Assembly: GCA_028281465.1 (NCBI GenBank) | Contig: JANQJV010000397.1 | Span: 1 to 42,785 of the forward strand | DNA length: 42,785 nucleotides | Source: Azospirillaceae bacterium | Lineage (GTDB): Bacteria; Pseudomonadota; Alphaproteobacteria; Azospirillales; Azospirillaceae | Reading direction: 5' to 3' | Made by a program: the position numbers and the translations under genes | In this document: positions 2,460 through 27,716 of the stretch, piece after piece | Numbering within the stretch: position 1 is the first letter of the stretch | Layout of the letters: the number at the start of each line of letters is the position of its first letter | The notes under the pieces: model-generated | Seen by the model: the letters and a program-made list of their open reading frames with translations, nothing else | Told to the model about the DNA's origin: nothing | The model's database searches: none

Positions 2460-4097
2460 CTAATTCGCTTGCCGGCGCAGAAACGCCGGAATATCCAACA
2501 CATCTTCCTCGCCGCTGGTACGCTTGGCCCGGTCGCGTCCTTCGGCCGCAGTTTCGACCGGTGGTTTAGCGGCTGGGGCGGCCGCCGGGGCGACCGGGGC
2601 GACGTCGGTGCTCGGCGCTTCGTCGCGACGCCGACCCACATTCAGGCCAGTGACCCGTTCGAACAAACTACCCGGACGGCGCCGTGCCTGGTCGTCGGCC
2701 TTGCCATTGGCCGATAGGACATCCGCGCGCGCCATCGCGGCACCGGTGCGCGCGCCAACGTCCACGGGACGGGGCGCAATGAAATGGCCGTCGCGCCGTT
2801 CGCCGCGCAGGGACCCACCGGTCGGCCGGTCCATGGGCGCATCCAGCGCGGCCGTCCGGTTCGCCGATGGCGCCACGGCCGCCTCCGCCGTCTCTGCCTG
2901 ACCGACCAGGGGCTTGACCGCAGCATCGCCGGCCGGTTCGGCCCGGCCCTGGGATAACTCCGTCTCCGCCACTGGCTGGGCGATCGCCACCGCGGTGTTG
3001 CCCGCCACGGCTCCCGGCGGCAGGGGGGCTGCCACCAACGAGGCATGGTAGTCGACCGGCCGCGGCCCGGCCGCGCCGGCGACCTTGCCACCCGCCACCA
3101 GGCTCAGGCTCGGTTGTGGACGCGGCACGGATTGCGCGTCGATGCCGGTGGCGACCACCGACACGCGCATGGTGCCTTCCATGGACTCATCGAACGTGGA
3201 GCCGAAGATGATGTTGGCTTCCGGGTCGACCTCGTCGCGGATGCGGTTGGCCGCCTCGTCGACCTCGAACAAGGTCATGTCCAGGCCACCCGTGATGTTG
3301 ATCAACACACCACGGGCTCCCTTCATGGACACGTCGTCCAACAGCGGGTTTGAGATGGCCGCCTCGGCCGCTTCCACCGCACGCCGCTCGCCCGAGGCCT
3401 CGCCGGTGCCCATCATCGCCTTGCCCATCTCGGTCATCACCGAGCGGATGTCGGCAAAGTCCAGATTGATCAGGCCAGGCATGACCATGAGATCGGTCAC
3501 GCCGCGCACGCCGGCATAAAGAACGTCGTCGGCCATCTTGAACGCGTCGGAGAACGTGGTCTTCTCGTTGGCGACCCGAAACAGGTTCTGGTTCGGGATG
3601 ATGATCAGTGTGTCGACATATTGTTGCAGTTCGCCGATCCCGGAGTCAGCCAAACGCATACGGTGGCCGCCTTCGAAATGAAACGGCTTGGTCACCACGC
3701 CGACCGTGAGGATGCCGCGCTCACGCGCCGCGCGCGCGATCACGGGGGCCGCCCCGGTGCCCGTGCCGCCGCCCATGCCGGCGGTGATAAACACCATGTT
3801 GGCGCCGTCCAGGAAGGTCATGATCTCGTCGATCTGCTCTTCCGCCGCGGCGCGCCCGACATCGGGCCGCGAGCCGGCACCCAAGCCGCGCGTAATCGTG
3901 GTGCCGAGCTGCAGCTTCTTTTGCGCCAGGCTCTGTTCCAGCGCCTGCGCGTCGGTGTTGCCGACCACAAAATCGACGCCCTCCAGATTGGCGCGGATCA
4001 TGTTGTTGATGGCGTTGCCACCGGCCCCACCGACCCCGAACACCGTGATGCGGGGCTTCAGCTCGGTTTCGATCTTGGGCATGCTCACGTTGATCAT
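2460..4097 (-). CDS. ftsZ: Cell division GTPase FtsZ
   Basis: FtsZ is the tubulin homologue that polymerises with GTP into the Z ring at midcell. The tubulin signature GGGTGTG is at residues 109-115, and the synergy-loop region [11 protein letters not shown] follows at about 215. The globular domain ends near residue 320. A long Ala/Pro-rich linker of about 200 residues follows, as in many alphaproteobacteria, and the protein ends in the conserved peptide [14 protein letters not shown] that binds FtsA and other partners. At 545 residues it is much longer than E. coli FtsZ (383), the extra length being linker. The ATG at 4097 has GGAGG 6 bases upstream. It is preceded by a 184-bp gap after ftsA, which could hold its own promoter, and is followed by a strong terminator. 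Confidence 0.98.
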
Positions 4098-19566: not shown

Positions 19567-20051
19567 GGCGTCACTCCCAGGCGCGCCATGAGTACACCAA
19601 TCTGATCAGTGATTCGTCTGTGCAACGGTACGGGAGCCGGACGATGCGTGGCCGCCGCCGTGGTCAACGGATTCCAACCATCGGCACTGCCGACCCAGAA
19701 TGGCCGGCCGGCGTCGGCTCGGGCGGCCGGAACCGTGAAGCTGGCAAAGGCCACGGGTGGCGCCGGCTGGACCGGCGGTGTCCGGAACGGCAAACTGTCG
19801 AAACCGGCGATCTTGGCCGACCCCGTGGGTTCCAGTGCCAGATGCTGCGTGACCAGGCGCTGCAGACGTTCCGGATCGTTCAGAATGCTCCACTCCGCCT
19901 TGAGCACCTGAATGTGCTCCTGCTCTGCGATGATGTCGCGGTGCAGACCGGCCAACTCACGTTCCAGTTCCTGGACCCGATAGCTGGTGTGGAACAGGAC
20001 CCCGCCGGCGATGGCGGCCAGGCCCGCCCAAAGATAGATCGAACGACCCAT
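19563..20051 (-). CDS. ftsL: Cell division protein FtsL
   Basis: FtsL is a small bitopic membrane protein that joins FtsB and FtsQ in the late divisome. One transmembrane segment is visible at residues 5-20 (IYLWAGLAAIAGGVLF), then a heptad-like coiled coil (YRVQELERELAGLHRDI to about residue 55), then the FtsL-type DPERLQRLVTQHLAL segment. A Pro/Ala-rich periplasmic tail follows, making it 162 residues. The ATG at 20051 overlaps the rsmH stop (TGATG) and has AGGAGG 7 bases upstream. FtsL sequences are poorly conserved, so identification rests on topology and position between rsmH and ftsI. Confidence 0.87.
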   Translation of the reverse strand: MGRSIYLWAGLAAIAGGVLFHTSYRVQELERELAGLHRDIIAEQEHIQVLKAEWSILNDPERLQRLVTQHLALEPTGSAKIAGFDSLPFRTPPVQPAPPVAFASFTVPAARADAGRPFWVGSADGWNPLTTAAATHRPAPVPLHRRITDQIGVLMARLGVTP

Positions 20052-21106
20052 CACATGCCCTCCTTGCCGTCCCAAGCCCGGCCATCCCACGCCGCACCCC
20101 CCCGAGCCGGCCCATCCCAGCTCGGCGCAAAAACGGGCGCCTCGGTGCGTTCCGCTACCCGCAACCGCGCCGATCGGGCCCGCGGATTGGCAGCAAGCTC
20201 CGCTTCACTCGGCCCGATCGGCCGTCGTGTCATGAGCCGGAACGACGGCTGGCGCAGGCCAGAGCCGACCGGCACGGGCGCATGCCGCGACGGTGCCGGC
20301 GCGCCGATGGCCCGGCGGCGCAGGAAATCCTTGACCACCCGGTCTTCCAACGAATGGAACGACACGACGACCAGCCGCCCGCCCGGCCGCAACACCCGTT
20401 CTGCCGCCGTAAGGCCACGTTCCAATTCGCCCAGCTCGTCGTTGACATGGATGCGCAGGGCCTGGAAGGTCCGCGTCGCCGGGTCGAGGCCGTCGGCACT
20501 GCGAGGCACGGCCGCCCGCACGATGGCCGCCAGACGTCCGGTGCGCGTGATCGGCTCTTCGGCACGCGTCGCAGCAATGGCACGGGCGACCCGACGAGCG
20601 TGCTTCTCCTCGCCCAATTCGAAGATCAGCCGCGCCAACTCCTGTTCCGACAGCGTGTTGACCAGATCGGCCGCCGTCCGGTCGGCGGATGGTCCCATGC
20701 GCATGTCGAGCGGTCCGTCGGTGCGGAACGAGAAACCCCGCTCCGGCGCATCGAGCTGTGGCGAAGAGACGCCCAAGTCGAAAATCACCCCATCGACCGA
20801 CACGATACCCAGCCCCTCAAGGAGGCTCTGCATATCGCCAAACCGGCCTTCGAGCGGAACCAATTGGTCACCATAGGTCCCGGCCATGGCCCGACCCAAG
20901 GCAATTGCCTCCGGATCCCGGTCGATCGCGATCACTCGGCAGTCCGCCATGGCGAGGAGTGCGCCGGCATAGCCGCCACGTCCGAACGTCGCGTCCACAT
21001 GGGTCTGACCATCGGCCGGCAGGAGTGCATCGACCGCTTCAGTCAGCATCACTGGCGTATGTGCCAGGGGTGTTTCCTGTGTCATCACTTTCGTCAACGC
21101 GTTCAT
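20051..21106 (-). CDS. rsmH: 16S rRNA m4C1402 N4-methyltransferase RsmH (MraW)
   Basis: RsmH methylates the N4 position of C1402 in 16S rRNA using S-adenosylmethionine. The N-terminal LAHTPVMLTEAVDAL is the family start, and VDATFGRGGYAGALL near residue 37 is the SAM-binding motif. FDLGVSSPQLDAPERGFSFR near 109 and the later VVVSFHSLEDRVVKDFL near 245 are family signatures. Length is 351 residues, slightly longer than E. coli RsmH (313), with an Arg/Ala-rich C-terminal tail. The start codon overlaps the mraZ stop in an ATGA quartet (21103-21106). It is the second gene of the dcw cluster. Confidence 0.97.
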   Translation of the reverse strand: MNALTKVMTQETPLAHTPVMLTEAVDALLPADGQTHVDATFGRGGYAGALLAMADCRVIAIDRDPEAIALGRAMAGTYGDQLVPLEGRFGDMQSLLEGLGIVSVDGVIFDLGVSSPQLDAPERGFSFRTDGPLDMRMGPSADRTAADLVNTLSEQELARLIFELGEEKHARRVARAIAATRAEEPITRTGRLAAIVRAAVPRSADGLDPATRTFQALRIHVNDELGELERGLTAAERVLRPGGRLVVVSFHSLEDRVVKDFLRRRAIGAPAPSRHAPVPVGSGLRQPSFRLMTRRPIGPSEAELAANPRARSARLRVAERTEAPVFAPSWDGPARGGAAWDGRAWDGKEGM

Positions 21107-21597
21107 GGTGCCTCTCCTTTGGCCGGAGCCTTGAGGGCGGATGCTTTCGCAATAATTTTGCTGAGTGAAATATCTTTGCTTCGTGCTTTTTCGCGCATTT
21201 GATTGTTGTAGGCGTCCAGCGTCGCCGGCTGCCAGATTTGGAAGGTCTTCCGTCGGCCGACAAACGCGGCTTCCTCCACGATGCCAGCGAACTCGCTCAA
21301 CGCGGACGGCAACACGATACGTCCTTCGCTGTCGAACGGAAGCTGCACCGAGCCGCCAAAGATCGTGGTTTCGATCATCTCGAACTCATCCGGTGGCAGA
21401 TCCAGCGTCTCCAGGCTCTCGCTCAATTGTTCCATGTGTTCTGCACTACACGCTTCAAGCGCCGGATGCTGGAGCGAACGGAAGACGACCACACCTTGGA
21501 AACTGTCGGACCCGAGGACACGGCGAAACTCTGCCGGCACCGAGACGCGGCCCTTTTTGTCAACCTTGTTGACGTATGTGGACAGAAAGACCGCCAT
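21103..21597 (-). CDS. mraZ: Transcriptional regulator MraZ
   Basis: MraZ is an AbrB-fold DNA-binding protein, known in other bacteria to bind TGGGN repeats upstream of its own gene and to regulate the dcw cluster. Two SpoVT/AbrB-like repeats are visible: VDKKGRVSVPAEFRRVLG at about residues 12-29, and DSEGRIVLPSALSEFAGI near 88. The conserved DXXGR motif occurs in each. Length is 164 residues, a little over the usual 145-150, with an Ala/Lys-rich tail. It is the first gene of the cluster and overlaps rsmH. Four phased TGGGN boxes lie 111 bases upstream of its start codon. Confidence 0.96.
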   Translation of the reverse strand: MAVFLSTYVNKVDKKGRVSVPAEFRRVLGSDSFQGVVVFRSLQHPALEACSAEHMEQLSESLETLDLPPDEFEMIETTIFGGSVQLPFDSEGRIVLPSALSEFAGIVEEAAFVGRRKTFQIWQPATLDAYNNQMREKARSKDISLSKIIAKASALKAPAKGEAP

Positions 21598-21707
21598 CCG
21601 ACCGCATGTCCCTATCCGGGCACCAAGGCCTCAAACGTCACCGCACAACTCCTTTGGTCCTGCCCTGTCACCAGCACCGCACCCATTTGGGCAGCAACCT
21701 TCTTTCA

Positions 21708-21742
21708 TGGGTGAATATGGGATACCATGGGAAAACATGGGT
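21708..21742 (+). promoter_or_regulatory. Four phased MraZ boxes (TGGGN-N5)x4
   Basis: TGGGT (21708), TGGGA (21718), TGGGA (21728) and TGGGT (21738) repeat at exactly 10 bp, each separated by five bases. This is the published MraZ operator architecture. The boxes lie 111-145 bp upstream of mraZ and read TGGG on the strand opposite to the gene. They overlap the weak -35/-10 candidate at 21719-21748, which would suit autorepression. Confidence 0.85.
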
Positions 21743-21775
21743 CGTCAACCGCAGACGATGTATCGGCCATGTCAA
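21719..21775 (-). promoter_or_regulatory. Candidate mraZ/dcw promoter
   Basis: On the minus strand a TTGACG (21748-21743) is followed after 18 bp by TATCCC (21724-21719), and both lie within the MraZ boxes. A better -35 hexamer, TTGACA (21775-21770), lies just upstream but has no good -10 partner (GCGGTT at 17 bp). The placement fits MraZ control, but the hexamers are weak and no start site is known. Confidence 0.35.
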
Positions 21776-21960
21776 GTCTTGTGTATTCCTTGGTTTCTCT
21801 TATCTGATTTTTTTACCGCACCACAATTTGTAGGGATTCAGAATGCTATATCTATGGATCGTGAGTCAGTCATGTGGATAAGATTGGGATATTCACTTTA
21901 TGTTCTTTTTGAGTGATCAGGTTTTGCGTGACCAATGAGCAACATTAAGCCGACTCGGTT
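21760..21960. other. AT-rich tract with a DnaA box, upstream of dcw
   Basis: This tract is conspicuously AT-rich for the window, with runs such as GATTTTTTTACC and CTATATCTATGG. It holds a consensus DnaA box, TGTGGATAA at 21873-21881 (TTATCCACA on the minus strand). It also holds three GANTC sites (21835, 21863, 21952), the target of the cell-cycle methylase CcrM in many alphaproteobacteria. No gene is supported here. Confidence 0.5.
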
Positions 21961-21981
21961 CGAGTTCTATGAATGCCGGCA

Positions 21982-22062
21982 TGGGATTTCATGGGAAATC
22001 GCCCATCAAACGGGCCGAGATGGGATGGGATGGGATGGGCCACGCCGACCCATGCCATCCCA
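21982..22062. repeat. Distal TGGGN cluster A
   Basis: Three groups of MraZ-box-like pentamers lie here. TGGGA occurs at 21982 and 21992 (10-bp phase). TGGGA-TGGGA-TGGGA-TGGGC runs without spacers at 22021-22040, so alternate pentamers are also 10 bp apart. On the other strand ACCCA (22048) and TCCCA (22058) are again 10 bp apart. No coding function was recognised. Confidence 0.6.
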
Positions 22063-22210
22063 AGGGACGGGCGAGGGAAAGCTTGACTGACCCTTGGAAA
22101 AGCGCTGGGCGGTGTGACCGACCCTCGCCCACCCGACATGAGCGAGGCGGGCGCCATAGCGGCAGGGTGAAAGCGGTGCGGCCCGCGGTCCGGCCCGCGG
22201 TCCGGTGGTC

Positions 22211-22225
22211 TGGGATGGGATGGGC
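22211..22225 (+). repeat. Distal TGGGN cluster B
   Basis: TGGGA-TGGGA-TGGGC lies in tandem, so the outer two pentamers are 10 bp apart, as in MraZ boxes. It resembles the 22021-22040 array. It is about 615 bp upstream of mraZ. Confidence 0.5.
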
Positions 22226-22550
22226 GGTGCCGGCTCTCGCTCAAAACCGGGCTTATCCTCGCCCACGGCACCGACCGTGTCGGTGATGGCGCCAATGCCC
22301 GCCGGGAGAATGTCCTCGATCACATGATCAATGCGACAGAAGCCCCGCCCGTGCCAACGGACCCCATCGAATCCCATAGGGGCGACGGTTCGATCCAACG
22401 CCACAAAGACAACCGGTGGCGATGATCCGGTATAGACTCCGCACTGTGCCCTCCCCGGTGCTTCGAGTGTCCGACAGCGCACCATGCCGCCTCGGGCCTT
22501 GCGTTCATGCCCATCAAAGAGGGGGGTGATACCAACGGCCCGAAACAATG
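22226..22550. other. Non-coding stretch with a reverse MraZ-box-like pair
   Basis: No gene was recognised here. Open frames exist but lack family resemblance or a ribosome binding site. CCCCA at 22362 and TCCCA at 22372 form a 10-bp-phased reverse-strand TGGGN pair. The minus-strand stretch around 22,250-22,330 could read as a protein-like fragment and may be decayed coding sequence, but I could not identify it. Confidence 0.35.
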
Positions 22551-22581
22551 ACCGGTCCTCGGGCCGCCCTGTTTCGGAGCA

Positions 22582-22664
22582 CCGGCTTCCAGCCGGCCCG
22601 AGACACGCCCAGCGGCTGGCCGCCAAGATGGCGGCGGTCCAGCCGGCAGGGATGCCGGCGCTCC
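22582..22664. repeat. REP composite, in trans to the RAYT gene
   Basis: The left end (22582-22605) is identical over 24 bases to 106-129. The right end (22642-22664) is identical over 23 bases to 240-262. The middle differs and holds its own GGCCGCC...GGCGG hairpin. The element looks like a shortened relative of the repeat array before the transposase gene 22 kb away, as expected for a non-autonomous REP moved in trans. Confidence 0.82.
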
Positions 22665-22892
22665 TCGTTCAGCGCCGAAACCGAACGCGTCATCAATGCG
22701 GGCCATGGGTATGATTTCCGGTCCAGGCGCGACCGAAGCCGGACCAGCGAGACGTTGGCACGCCCCTGCTCCAGTCCCAATCGCCTGTCCGGTGTGCGCA
22801 TGGACGCGCCCGACGATCCGACGAGGTCTTCCCGGTTCCGAAATATTCGGCTACTTAGGAAACCGATTCGAGGGGAACGAAGGCGGTCCAAA

Positions 22893-23702
22893 ATGGGGTG
22901 GCGTGGTGGCGCAAGGTGGACATTGGGCATTGGGCTGGCCGTGCTTGGCATGACGGACACGGCCGTAACCGGGGCCAACCCAGCCGCAACCCAAGCGATT
23001 CAGGAACATCCGCTGCATTTGGTGACTGAGGAGGCGCCGCCACTCACCATCGTGGGTGAAGATGGCGGTCTGTCCGGCGCATCCGTGGACATCGTGCGCG
23101 CCATGGCGGCGCGCGCCAATGTCCCTATCACCCTGGACGTCTATCCCTGGGCGCGCGCCATCCACAGCGCCGAAACCACCGCCGGGACCTGCGTGTTTTC
23201 CACCTGGGTCACCGAAGCGCGGCTGCCGCGCTTCCGCTGGGTCCGCTCGCTCGGCATGGACGGCATGGCCCTGTTCGCGCTCGAAACCAGCCCGATTGCC
23301 GCCACCACTCGCCCTGAAGACCTGCAAGGCCTCTCCATCGTCACCACGCGTGGGTGGGCCATTCTGGAAGAATTACAACGCCTCGATCTGGACGACCAGA
23401 TCCGCACGCTTGACCGCGATCCGCAAAATCTCACCGTATTGGCCTCGGGACGTGCCGATCTCTGGGCCGGCGCGCGGAGCAGCGCCCCTTTCATCGCCAG
23501 GCAACACGGCCTGACCCTCCGCACGATCCTATCGATCAAGGACGTCGACCTCGGCCTCGCCTGCCATCGCAGCACCCCCGAGGCTGTGATTAGGCGCTTG
23601 CAGGCCGTCCTGGATCGGTTGTGGGCCGACGGCACGGTCCAGACCATCCGCAGCCGATACTATGGTACACCGCTATCGGTGCTCACGCATCCCCGCCCAT
23701 GA
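22893..23702 (+). CDS. Periplasmic solute-binding protein, SBP_bac_3 type (orphan)
   Basis: A 269-residue protein resembling amino-acid-type ABC substrate-binding proteins of family 3. A short signal peptide is likely (ARWTLGIGLAVLGMTDTAVTGA). The mature part begins HPLHLVTEEAPPLTIVGEDG and has the family pattern SGASVDIVRAMAARANVPI, then VYPWARAIHSAE. The ligand-domain hinge FVTTRGWA-like segment SIVTTRGWAILEEL lies in the middle, and the protein ends IRSRYYGTPLSVL. The ATG at 22893 is chosen because the signal peptide starts there; the frame is open upstream through the REP element but is not protein-like. No permease or ATPase gene is adjacent, so the transport partner is unknown. Its end overlaps the end of the hicB-like gene by 20 bases. 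Confidence 0.8.
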   Translation: MGWRGGARWTLGIGLAVLGMTDTAVTGANPAATQAIQEHPLHLVTEEAPPLTIVGEDGGLSGASVDIVRAMAARANVPITLDVYPWARAIHSAETTAGTCVFSTWVTEARLPRFRWVRSLGMDGMALFALETSPIAATTRPEDLQGLSIVTTRGWAILEELQRLDLDDQIRTLDRDPQNLTVLASGRADLWAGARSSAPFIARQHGLTLRTILSIKDVDLGLACHRSTPEAVIRRLQAVLDRLWADGTVQTIRSRYYGTPLSVLTHPRP

Positions 23703-24090
23703 GGCGGTCATTGGCGGCATCGGCCAGGAACGCGCTGCGGTCGAGCGCCACGGCATCGATGCGCGCGAGCAGTCGCTCCGGCAGCGACACGGTCACATCC
23801 ACCAGGCCACCCGGCGGCGGCAACAACGGCACCAGCACGGCTGTGGTGCACGACCAGTCGATACCGGCCACGCCCGTCCCCTCAGCCCGGATGTCCTCCA
23901 AACTGCGCGGCGGCGGCACCGGCGTGTCGCCGCCGCGCAGGCCGTCCACATGCGCGGACAACACCGCGGCGGCCAGGGGGATCACGTCCCGACTGTTGGA
24001 CGCCGCACTGCCGCAACCCGGCAGATCAGGAAACCGGATGCTGCACCCGATGCGGCCGTCCCAATCGATCAACGCGACGTAGTATTCCAT
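23683..24090 (-). CDS. HicB-family antitoxin-like protein (orphan)
   Basis: A 135-residue protein with a HicB-like N-terminal domain (MEYYVALIDWDGRIGCSIRF, then PDLPGCGSAASNSRDVI), the degraded RNase H-like fold of HicB antitoxins. The C-terminal part, VDVTVSLPERLLARIDAV then DRSAFLADAAND, fits a ribbon-helix-helix DNA-binding domain. In a normal hicAB pair a 55-80-residue HicA toxin lies next to it, but there is no such gene: 48 bases separate it from the mscS-type gene upstream, and its 3' end overlaps the convergent binding-protein gene. It may act as a lone regulator or respond to a HicA elsewhere. A GGGAGA ribosome binding site precedes the ATG. Confidence 0.82.
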   Translation of the reverse strand: MEYYVALIDWDGRIGCSIRFPDLPGCGSAASNSRDVIPLAAAVLSAHVDGLRGGDTPVPPPRSLEDIRAEGTGVAGIDWSCTTAVLVPLLPPPGGLVDVTVSLPERLLARIDAVALDRSAFLADAANDRLMGGDA

Positions 24091-24138
24091 GGCTCGTCTC
24101 CCTTCCGCCGCGGACCCCCGACCCGATGGCTGGGGGCA

Positions 24139-26358
24139 TCACCGGCCGACGTCGGCACCGGACAACGCTGGCACCTGCCCCGCCTCGTCCAGAAGCGGGC
24201 GCACCGCTCCAGCGATATGCTGCTTTTCACCCTCGGTCAGCGGTTGGTCCGGCGCATCGGCCAAGCGCACCGTCACCTCACGGCTGGCAAAGCGGATGCC
24301 GTGCTCGGCGAACAACTCGCGGATACGCGAATACACCACCTTGCGAACGCCGAACTGGTCGCCTGGCTTGGTCATGAATTTGACCCGGATGATCATGGCC
24401 GAGTCTTCCATCTGATACACGCCCTGGGATTTCAGCGGCTCCATGAACTTTTCGCCGATCTCCGGGTGGCGTAAGAGCTCCTTGCCGAGTTGCTTGATCA
24501 GCTTGCTGACCTTGTCCGGATCGGTGTCGTAGGTCAATCGCAACGGCAGCTTCATCATCACCCAGTCGCGACTGTAGTTGGTCAGCGACGTGATCTCGCC
24601 GAACGGAATGGTGTGCAACGGCCCCAGGTGATGGCGCAATTGAATGGAACGCACCGAGATTTTCTCCACCGTGCCGCGGGTCTGTCCGGTTTCGATGTAC
24701 TCGCCGCGCCGGAACGCATCGTCCATCAGGAAGAAGGCGCCGGAAAAGATGTCGCGGATCAGGGTTTGCGCGCCGAAGCCCACCGCCAGGCCGACCACGC
24801 CGGCGCCGGCGAATAGGGGAGCGATGTCCACGCCCATCTCCGACAGCACCAACATGCCGGCGATGCTGGCAATCACCGCCAGCAGGAAATTGCGGAAGAT
24901 CGGCAGCAAAGTGGCCAAGCGCGACGCCGCCGACGCACCGCCCTCGTCGCCACGGCCGGCGCCGGCGTCGGCCCCACCGCCCTCCTCGGCAATCTTGTCG
25001 TCGATCTTGGTCCGGACGGCATGAAATGCGATGTACGCCAGGAAGGCAATCAGGGCGATCTCGATGCCGGTGCCGAACAACGCATGGTCGCCCATGGAAC
25101 CGGGCAACCACGATTCCGCGACAAACAGCCCGTACAGCGCCAGGGCCAACAGAGACAGGGCATGCTCGGCGACCTGCTTCATGCCCTGCCGCCCCGTCGG
25201 TGCCCCGTCGGCGCCAACCGGCATGACCGAGTCATCGTCCTTGAAGACGTGGTCGATCACCAGCAGGGCGATCGCATAGGCCGCATAGGCTGCCACGCCA
25301 AGCAGCACCGGCGCCGAAACCGGGCCGATCGCCCCCGGCTGATCCAACAGCAACCGAACCACCGAGACCGCCCAGGCACCCATGAAGTAGACCACGGCCA
25401 CCAGATGCCACATCTCGGCAAGACCGCGCAGCATCGGCCCGACGGTCTCCGGAGTCGGGCCCAAGATCGCCCCGGTCACCGCCGCCCGGTAGCGCACCGC
25501 GGTCGCCGAGAACAGGACGGCGACGATGAGCGAGGTGCCGACCAGCATCAGCATGTGGGCATCCTCGCTCAGGCCGAGCCGCTCCATGAGCAGGCAAACC
25601 GCGAACACCGGCACGCCGATCCAGGTCACGACAGTGAGACTGCGGAACAAGCCCAAAGCATCGGCATCGGACATCCAGATCAACCGATGCTTTGGCGCAT
25701 CCGGCGCCGTGAAGCCATGGAAGACGATCACCATGGTGCGGGCCCACGCCACGGCCAGGGCCGTATGGCCGATGACGGCGCGCCATGCCGGATCGTCCGG
25801 GGCAAACGCCAGCATCAAGACGCCGGCCACGGCAATCTGGATGGCGACGCCGAGGGTGAGCAGGACGACACGAAACAGCAGATAGGAGATGCGCTCGGTG
25901 CGGGTCGCCGGCTCCGGATTGTACAAGAACCGGAAATGCTCCCGCACATGGCTTCCCACCACCCGGCTGACCGCATAGCCCAGGGCCAGGAAAACGACGG
26001 CCAGCCCGAAGGCCAACACGGGCCACCAGGCCGTGCCGTCGCTGGAATGGGCCGCCAGGACGTGCACCAGGTCACCCGGAATGGCCGGCATCACCGTGAT
26101 CACTTCGGCCAATCGGGTGCGCACCATCATGGCGTCGCCTTCCAGCGACCCCATGGTGACCCCCACCTCCTCCGCAGGCCTTGGCGTCCCGTCCGGCGGC
26201 ACGATGACGATGCGGTACCCCTCGCGGTGCGCCTGTTCCACGAGCGCTTGCAGGCTTGCACCGCCGTCCACCGGCGGCATGCCGGTCTGCGCCGATGCCG
26301 GTATCGCCTGAAACACGAGCAAAACAAGGAGGATCGTCACAGGCAGGGCGCGCGGCAT
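24139..26358 (-). CDS. Large MscS-family mechanosensitive channel (YbiO-like)
   Basis: A 739-residue inner-membrane channel of the MscS family that would release solutes on hypo-osmotic shock. It starts with a signal peptide (ALPVTILLVLLVFQAIPASAQ), a periplasmic domain to about residue 110, then roughly ten transmembrane segments. The MscS pore helix and beta domain are recognisable near residues 520-580: GVVGLAVGFGAQTLIRDIFSG, then FRRGEYIETGQTRGTVEKI. The pattern SIQLRHHLGPLHTIPFGEI follows and the cytoplasmic domain ends near 720. Length and topology match E. coli YbiO. The ATG at 26358 has GGAGG 5 bases upstream; the frame is open a little further upstream. It is followed by the hicB-like gene on the same strand. 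Confidence 0.9.
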   Translation of the reverse strand: MPRALPVTILLVLLVFQAIPASAQTGMPPVDGGASLQALVEQAHREGYRIVIVPPDGTPRPAEEVGVTMGSLEGDAMMVRTRLAEVITVMPAIPGDLVHVLAAHSSDGTAWWPVLAFGLAVVFLALGYAVSRVVGSHVREHFRFLYNPEPATRTERISYLLFRVVLLTLGVAIQIAVAGVLMLAFAPDDPAWRAVIGHTALAVAWARTMVIVFHGFTAPDAPKHRLIWMSDADALGLFRSLTVVTWIGVPVFAVCLLMERLGLSEDAHMLMLVGTSLIVAVLFSATAVRYRAAVTGAILGPTPETVGPMLRGLAEMWHLVAVVYFMGAWAVSVVRLLLDQPGAIGPVSAPVLLGVAAYAAYAIALLVIDHVFKDDDSVMPVGADGAPTGRQGMKQVAEHALSLLALALYGLFVAESWLPGSMGDHALFGTGIEIALIAFLAYIAFHAVRTKIDDKIAEEGGGADAGAGRGDEGGASAASRLATLLPIFRNFLLAVIASIAGMLVLSEMGVDIAPLFAGAGVVGLAVGFGAQTLIRDIFSGAFFLMDDAFRRGEYIETGQTRGTVEKISVRSIQLRHHLGPLHTIPFGEITSLTNYSRDWVMMKLPLRLTYDTDPDKVSKLIKQLGKELLRHPEIGEKFMEPLKSQGVYQMEDSAMIIRVKFMTKPGDQFGVRKVVYSRIRELFAEHGIRFASREVTVRLADAPDQPLTEGEKQHIAGAVRPLLDEAGQVPALSGADVGR

Positions 26359-26461
26359 GGCAACCTCCAATCGGCCCCACCGCCCGGCCGGCAGCACCGC
26401 CGGCCTTCATAGCGCGCCCGCGGCCGCCGAACAATGCGGCACAGCCCAAGTCGCCGAACCG

Positions 26462-27271: not shown

Positions 27272-27716
27272 TCGGTGCCAGACGGCCTGTAAGCCGGGTT
27301 CTGTCGCCGGCGCGCCCAGGGGGCAACGCCGGCGGATGGCCATTCCTCTGGGACGCCCGTCGCCGGACGCCTCGCGCGACCAACCCGGGCGGCGGCCCGG
27401 AAACCCGCTTGCCCCCCTGTTCACCCCTTGGGGCGTCAATGGGGAGCCTGCCGCCCCTATTCGGTCTTGCTCCCGGTGGGGTTTACCATGCCGCCCCCGT
27501 TGCCGGCGGCGCGGTGCGCCCTTACCGCACCCTTTCACCCTTACCCATGGGGCCTGCCATCCGGCAGGCGCGTGGGCGGTTTGCTTTCTGTGGCACTTTC
27601 CCTGGGGTCGCCCCCGCCGGCCGTTAACCGGCACCGTGTTTCCGTGGAGCCCGGACTTTCCTCCCCGCAGCGTTGATCCCAGCGCCGCGGAGCGGCCATC
27701 CGGCCGTCTGGCAGCC
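27272..27716 (-). ncRNA. rnpB: RNase P RNA (type A)
   Basis: The catalytic RNA of RNase P, which removes the 5' leader from tRNA precursors. On the minus strand the conserved P4 and flanking core GAGGAAAGTCCGGGCTCCAC is at 27663-27644. The universally conserved 3' core ACAGAACCCGGCTTACAGGCC is at 27304-27284. A 12-bp P1 helix closes the molecule: TGCCAGACGGCC (27713-27702) pairs with GGCCGTCTGGCA (27288-27277). ACAGAAAGCAAACCGCC and GGTAAGGGTGAAAGGGTGCGGTAAG motifs lie between in the usual order. The total is about 440 bases, typical of an alphaproteobacterial RNA. The ends are estimated from P1 and may be off by several bases. Confidence 0.96.

Follow-up and report, generated by a model that had tools for sequence, protein, structure and literature searches.

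Satellite MraZ-box pairs surround mraZ in Azospirillaceae and may serve as auxiliary looping operators

MraZ forms ring oligomers with many DNA-binding domains, and MraZ entries exist in the PDB. We know of no reason for a ring that carries so many identical DNA-binding domains. The MraZ operators of E. coli, Burkholderia cenocepacia and Mollicutes are like the one analyzed here in having 10-bp direct repeats at the mraZ promoter and a regulator of the same protein family. In B. cenocepacia the transcription start is covered by four 7-nt repeats, separated by 3-nt spacers (PMC7761207), and Mollicute MraZ binds its repeats as a single octamer (PMC5282649). Loss of mraZ in E. coli has no apparent phenotype (PMC8475190). 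The described operators form one promoter-proximal cluster, whereas here extra pairs occur out to about 1.4 kb, on either strand and also within other genes. These distal pairs appear to be new; a search of open-access literature found no account of distal MraZ sites.

For such an arrangement the closest functional analogue is DeoR, a repressor bridging operators several hundred bp apart. Another is found in lac, where auxiliary operators flank the promoter and O2 lies inside the coding sequence, much like the rsmH site of MraZ boxes described below. At E. coli deo, DeoR bridges O1 and O2 about 600 bp apart, with OE about 300 bp further upstream (PMC8053113), and a LacI study describes looping at O1, O2 and O3 (PMC4725879). 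DeoR is nevertheless unrelated to MraZ and two of its operators lie at promoters; its looping has been demonstrated, whereas we infer it for MraZ. LacI differs as well, acting as a tetramer on palindromic operators, in contrast to many-subunit MraZ rings on direct-repeat boxes.

The locus lies in a stretch of 42,785 bp from an Azospirillaceae bacterium (hereafter the window), which is one contig of a 6.33 Mb draft genome. The nearest relatives of its mraZ are found in Rhodospirillales and Azospirillaceae MAGs, followed by Azospirillum, Nitrospirillum, Niveispirillum and Skermanella. The genes relevant here are:

20051..21106, minus strand: rsmH (mraW), directly after mraZ
21103..21597, minus strand: mraZ, the regulator gene, matching Pfam MraZ (PF02381) in two stretches
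27274..27711, minus strand: rnpB (RNase P RNA), 5.7 kb upstream of mraZ

The MraZ residues D13-K-K-G-R17 (D-x-K-G-R) are invariant across relatives. Upstream, 1.3 kb (21598-22892) part mraZ from a divergent solute-binding-protein gene. This interval has no recognisable gene, and a hidden one was rejected because the tested ORFs gave no Pfam match. The position of rnpB given above also led us to reject its presence inside the array. In relatives rnpB usually adjoins the mraZ leader on its upstream side, whereas in the window inserted genes lie between them. The extra genes at 22893-26397 in this rnpB-mraZ interval, which code among others for a solute-binding protein and an MscS-type channel, are missing from the relatives' short interval. 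The intergenic region upstream of mraZ further contains a 12-bp GC-rich tandem repeat (22173-22205) and, by eye, a REP-like palindromic stretch (around 22570-22670).

Beyond the canonical boxes, the initial annotation had listed TGGGN arrays on both strands, and each of them was confirmed at its coordinates. The promoter boxes and the arrays, here called satellites, are:

21707..21748, plus strand: four canonical MraZ boxes, TGGG at 21708, 21718, 21728 and 21738; top matrix matches
21981..21995, plus strand: satellite pair 1, ATGGGATTTCATGGG, TGGG at 21982 and 21992, -398 from mraZ; score 28.2
22020..22039, plus strand: satellite 2, (ATGGG)4, TGGG at 22021, 22026, 22031 and 22036, giving two overlapping 10-bp pairs; scores 22.1 and 20.3
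22049..22062, minus strand: satellite 3, opposite-strand pair TGGGATGGCATGGG; score 20.1
22210..22224, plus strand: satellite 4, CTGGGATGGGATGGG, three boxes with TGGG at 22211, 22216 and 22221; score 18.1
22363..22377, minus strand: satellite 5, opposite-strand pair ATGGGATTCGATGGG; score 16.3

The canonical boxes overlie the mraZ promoter, which reads TTGACG-N17-TATCCC on the minus strand. They start between the -35 and -10 elements, whereas the B. cenocepacia boxes lie downstream of -10. Like known MraZ operators, the promoter site and the satellites are direct repeats of a TGGG/GTG core at a 10-bp step, and the cognate MraZ is encoded by the adjacent gene. The promoter has the three to four boxes typical of such operators (21708-21741), while most satellites have two only. 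An operator of the divergent solute-binding gene was considered and rejected, as the closest site is more than 500 bp from the start of that gene; this reading is also contradicted by relatives that keep satellites next to a different upstream gene.

The clustering of these pairs departs strongly from chance. Across the window we counted 10 occurrences of TGGG-N6-TGGG against 2.65 ± 1.62 expected, a number reached in none of 100 shuffles. The distal interval 21743-22892 (1,150 bp, both strands) accounts for six pairs with 0.11 expected (0 of 5,000 dinucleotide shuffles), and four of the six still stand without the (ATGGG)4 run, whose exact sequence is unique in the genome. Spacings in this interval are 10 bp (six times), 5 bp (five times, in pentamer runs only) and 15 bp (once); no other TGGG spacing from 5 to 21 bp occurs there. 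The initial annotation had asked for a genome-wide count, and the outcome depends on the pattern. The bare TGGG-N6-TGGG does not exceed background, with 231 occurrences against 227 of the reversed control, whereas ATGGGATNNNATGGG has only six exact matches in 6.33 Mb, five of them within 660 bp at the array, one of these being a promoter pair. The signal thus resides in the clustering and in the fuller ATGGGATNNNATGGG form.

We then compared the satellites with the promoter operator using a position matrix built from 80 other mraZ loci, with the window left out of training. In a scan of the 42.8 kb, the nine pairs of the window take the first nine ranks, and the next unrelated position scores 14.5. 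The distal pair at 21982 has the highest score, whereas no promoter pair exceeds 27.7. A matrix made from promoter boxes only still detects the sites at -398 (27.4), -437, -465 (reverse) and -627, while the -779 site (satellite 5) falls under its cut-off. The satellites thereby carry the motif of the main operator, as auxiliary operators do, although the sequence between boxes is somewhat more GC-rich in satellites than in promoter sites. The suspicion that the arrays are deliberate is supported by this fit to a matrix from promoters of other species and by a strict search, in which 10 of the 13 Azospirillaceae genera have equivalents close to mraZ.

Conservation extends this picture to the relatives. 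In 80 named loci, 178 TGGG pairs at exactly 10 bp lie from -1500 to -250 of mraZ (56 loci), compared with 2-25 pairs for each other spacing of 4-21 bp and with 36 TGGG pairs in 309 kb downstream; the loci are phylogenetically related, so these counts overstate independence. A same-orientation pair near -430 lies in an aligned block common to nearly all Azospirillum. As judged by alignment and by its context (GGGCGATTTCCCATGnnnTCCCATGCCGG), which resembles that of the Azospirillum pair, the 21982 pair is its counterpart; the conservation check proposed initially thus turned out positive, nearly all Azospirillum and several sister genera having a counterpart between about -415 and -450. Satellite spacing from mraZ varies between genera: three reverse pairs lie at about -606/-556/-516 in Nitrospirillum and three at about -1346/-1277/-1247 in Niveispirillum, and Skermanella has a palindromic pair at -913/-909. 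In three further alphaproteobacterial loci (L117, L118, L119) no TGGG pair is recognisable at the promoter, yet each has one reverse pair at -696 to -702.

Whole genomes of Azospirillaceae were searched with CCCATNNNNTCCCATG. The 36 genomes tallied contain 34 promoter matches and 48 satellites less than 5 kb from mraZ, none of them farther away than 2.6 kb. Four matches lie elsewhere, so that by position (48 near versus 4 far) the satellites have the proximity of auxiliary operators; in this search, strict satellites are absent from some of the sister genera or genomes. Class-wide, 75 tallied genomes yielded 72 promoter matches and 17 far sites, and seven further families contribute nine satellites. 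Upstream density is about 2 per kb at -250 to -750 and declines, though not evenly, to a background of about 0.05 per kb beyond -2.3 kb. On the downstream side there are no matches apart from +750 to +1000 and one near +3.8 kb. The satellites of relatives occur in both orientations and are hosted by intergenic sequence, rnpB, an Amidase_2 gene and rsmH. Family-wide, MraZ-box pairs surround mraZ within about 2 kb, regardless of strand or host function.

The downstream site, about 0.9 kb from the promoter in relatives, coincides with the rsmH motif D-M-R-M-G-x-[D/H]-G, encoded as ATG GGA CGG GAT GGG. NAT followed by GGG is found in 23 of 38 loci with D or H, where 1.34 are expected from the codon usage of each gene itself. 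The boxes persist despite residue changes (R-D, S-D, P-D, R-H, N-H), and a Q-H version occurs in two other families. The loci being related, this variety of residue contexts is a stronger argument than 23 of 38, and by these codon patterns the rsmH boxes are constrained at the codon level. The rsmH of the window has no second box (ATG GGA CCA TCC).

Upstream, Denitrobaculum and Pelagibius each have two box pairs within rnpB (L100 2943-3415 and L107 3111-3582). By alignment, the Pelagibius pairs fall in an insert of a variable RNA helix, which we take to be P12 of RNase P RNA. Further satellites lie within an Amidase_2 gene, upstream of rnpB. The Skermanella rnpB (L087 3066-3485) contains a palindromic MraZ-box pair, CCCATGGGATCCCATGGG, at 3088-3105 near its 5' end. 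This pair forms a hairpin of the RNase P RNA, presumably P3, so that RNA structure and DNA boxes coincide.

Taken together, the arrays are probably auxiliary (satellite) MraZ operators bridged to the promoter by the multivalent MraZ ring, a reading that we favor with some reserve. The clustering of boxes within about 2 kb of mraZ, even inside neighboring genes, suggests that MraZ probably binds several distant points and loops the DNA. In the proposed mechanism, MraZ would repress the dcw operon via the four boxes over the mraZ promoter, while satellites of two to four boxes, on either strand and 0.25-1.4 kb upstream, would hold extra subunits of the same ring or a second ring. The rsmH site of relatives would likewise hold MraZ subunits. 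The satellites would raise MraZ occupancy of the promoter through DNA looping, and this is proposed to make autorepression tighter and more switch-like. We infer from sequence patterns that MraZ binds the satellites, that one assembly bridges them and that repression is stronger as a result. Helical phasing relative to the promoter would have been strong support; it was marginal for same-orientation satellites (R = 0.45 and p about 0.03 with a period of 10.5 bp, stronger at 11.0), and opposite-orientation satellites showed none. This result speaks against the reading, as do the differing spacing between genera, the two boxes of most satellites against four at the promoter, and the genomes that lack strict satellites. 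The initial annotation had envisaged an MraZ-DNA complex over some 670 bp. This idea is plausible if altered to bridging; one continuous complex fits less well, and the bridging of distant sites is favored by the way in which separate pairs are scattered across 0.25-2 kb, on either strand and also within genes. More tentatively, and with odds somewhat below even, MraZ may be a DNA-bridging repressor whose ring ties the dcw promoter to satellites in a local loop domain (amidase-rnpB-mraZ-rsmH), with selection writing operators into codons and RNase P RNA helices.

Several other explanations must be weighed against bridging. Satellites might bind MraZ and, with no bridging to the promoter, serve as decoys or local reservoirs; the level of free MraZ and the autoregulation threshold would then depend on them. 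Many sites per genome and the irrelevance of strand and phase would suit such a role, but decoys would work at any genomic place, and the confinement of satellites to about 2 kb around mraZ makes this unlikely. It is also improbable that every satellite serves a promoter of its own, for rnpB, a leader RNA, antisense transcripts or divergent genes, so that a small MraZ regulon is packed around mraZ. Several sites do lie near rnpB, the -430 pair is upstream of mraZ in the same direction, and long leaders are known from other alphaproteobacteria such as R. sphaeroides (PMC5089854). Yet no TTGAC-N17-TAT was found around the window satellites and none was apparent by eye in the contexts of relatives, and several sites fall well inside rnpB, the amidase gene or rsmH.

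Local repeat expansion had been suggested from the outset, and it may explain the pentamer runs (22020-22039 and 22210-22225), the only ones in which head-to-tail units account for the copies. That all satellites are functionless ATGGG units copied from the promoter boxes via slippage or short duplications is quite unlikely, even with the perfect (ATGGG)4, the three-box run at 22210-22224 and other short repeats nearby. Expansion does not explain the conserved pairs of rsmH, rnpB and the amidase gene, with their conserved positions in many genera, unrelated hosts and rsmH codon constraint, nor the four distal pairs that survive removal of the (ATGGG)4 run. That run is probably in part a product of local expansion too. 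The somewhat more GC-rich sequence between satellite boxes could point to a different DNA-binding protein with a similar repeat, e.g. a nucleoid or segregation complex; given that box and 10-bp step match the promoter operator, that the flanks resemble it and that the sites are strictly local to mraZ, we regard this as very improbable. An RNA hairpin at 22005-22085 (z -3.1 on the plus strand, -1.8 on the mraZ strand) was rejected as the main explanation, because it arises from neighboring boxes on opposite strands, an arrangement that most conserved satellites lack.

Two other sites lie between the promoter boxes and the satellites, outside the arrays:

21873..21881, minus strand: perfect DnaA box, TTATCCACA
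21891..21905, minus strand: near-consensus LexA box, GAACATAAAGTGAAT, with one mismatch

A perfect GAAC-N7-GAAC, the alphaproteobacterial type of LexA box, precedes mraZ in 50 of 81 loci, always within -500..-150, where control spacings of 5, 6 and 8 gave none in the 81 loci. In L031-L110 the LexA boxes lie at about -160 to -360 from mraZ and DnaA boxes at about -200 to -450. DnaA boxes of the form TTATCCACA number 50 in -500..-150 over 81 loci versus 0 in 313 kb downstream, and Azospirillum has two conserved inverted DnaA-box pairs, one of which adjoins the -430 MraZ pair. This cluster suggests that the dcw operon may receive an input from replication or DnaA. Azospirillum loci (L045-L084) also have, by eye, a conserved CGATTCG block between the -430 pair and the promoter; it holds a CcrM-type GANTC methylation site. 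A gut metagenome study (PMC3998124) showed in vitro binding at a LexA site that precedes an mraZ homologue; together with the conserved LexA boxes, this raises the possibility of widespread SOS control of dcw.

As a regulator of cell division MraZ is widely conserved, and the conserved satellites offer a direct, testable reason for its ring, namely the bridging of distant sites. They would also represent an unusual natural case of operators maintained within helices of RNase P RNA and within a protein-coding gene, rsmH. Azospirillum would be a good model for the question of satellite operators.
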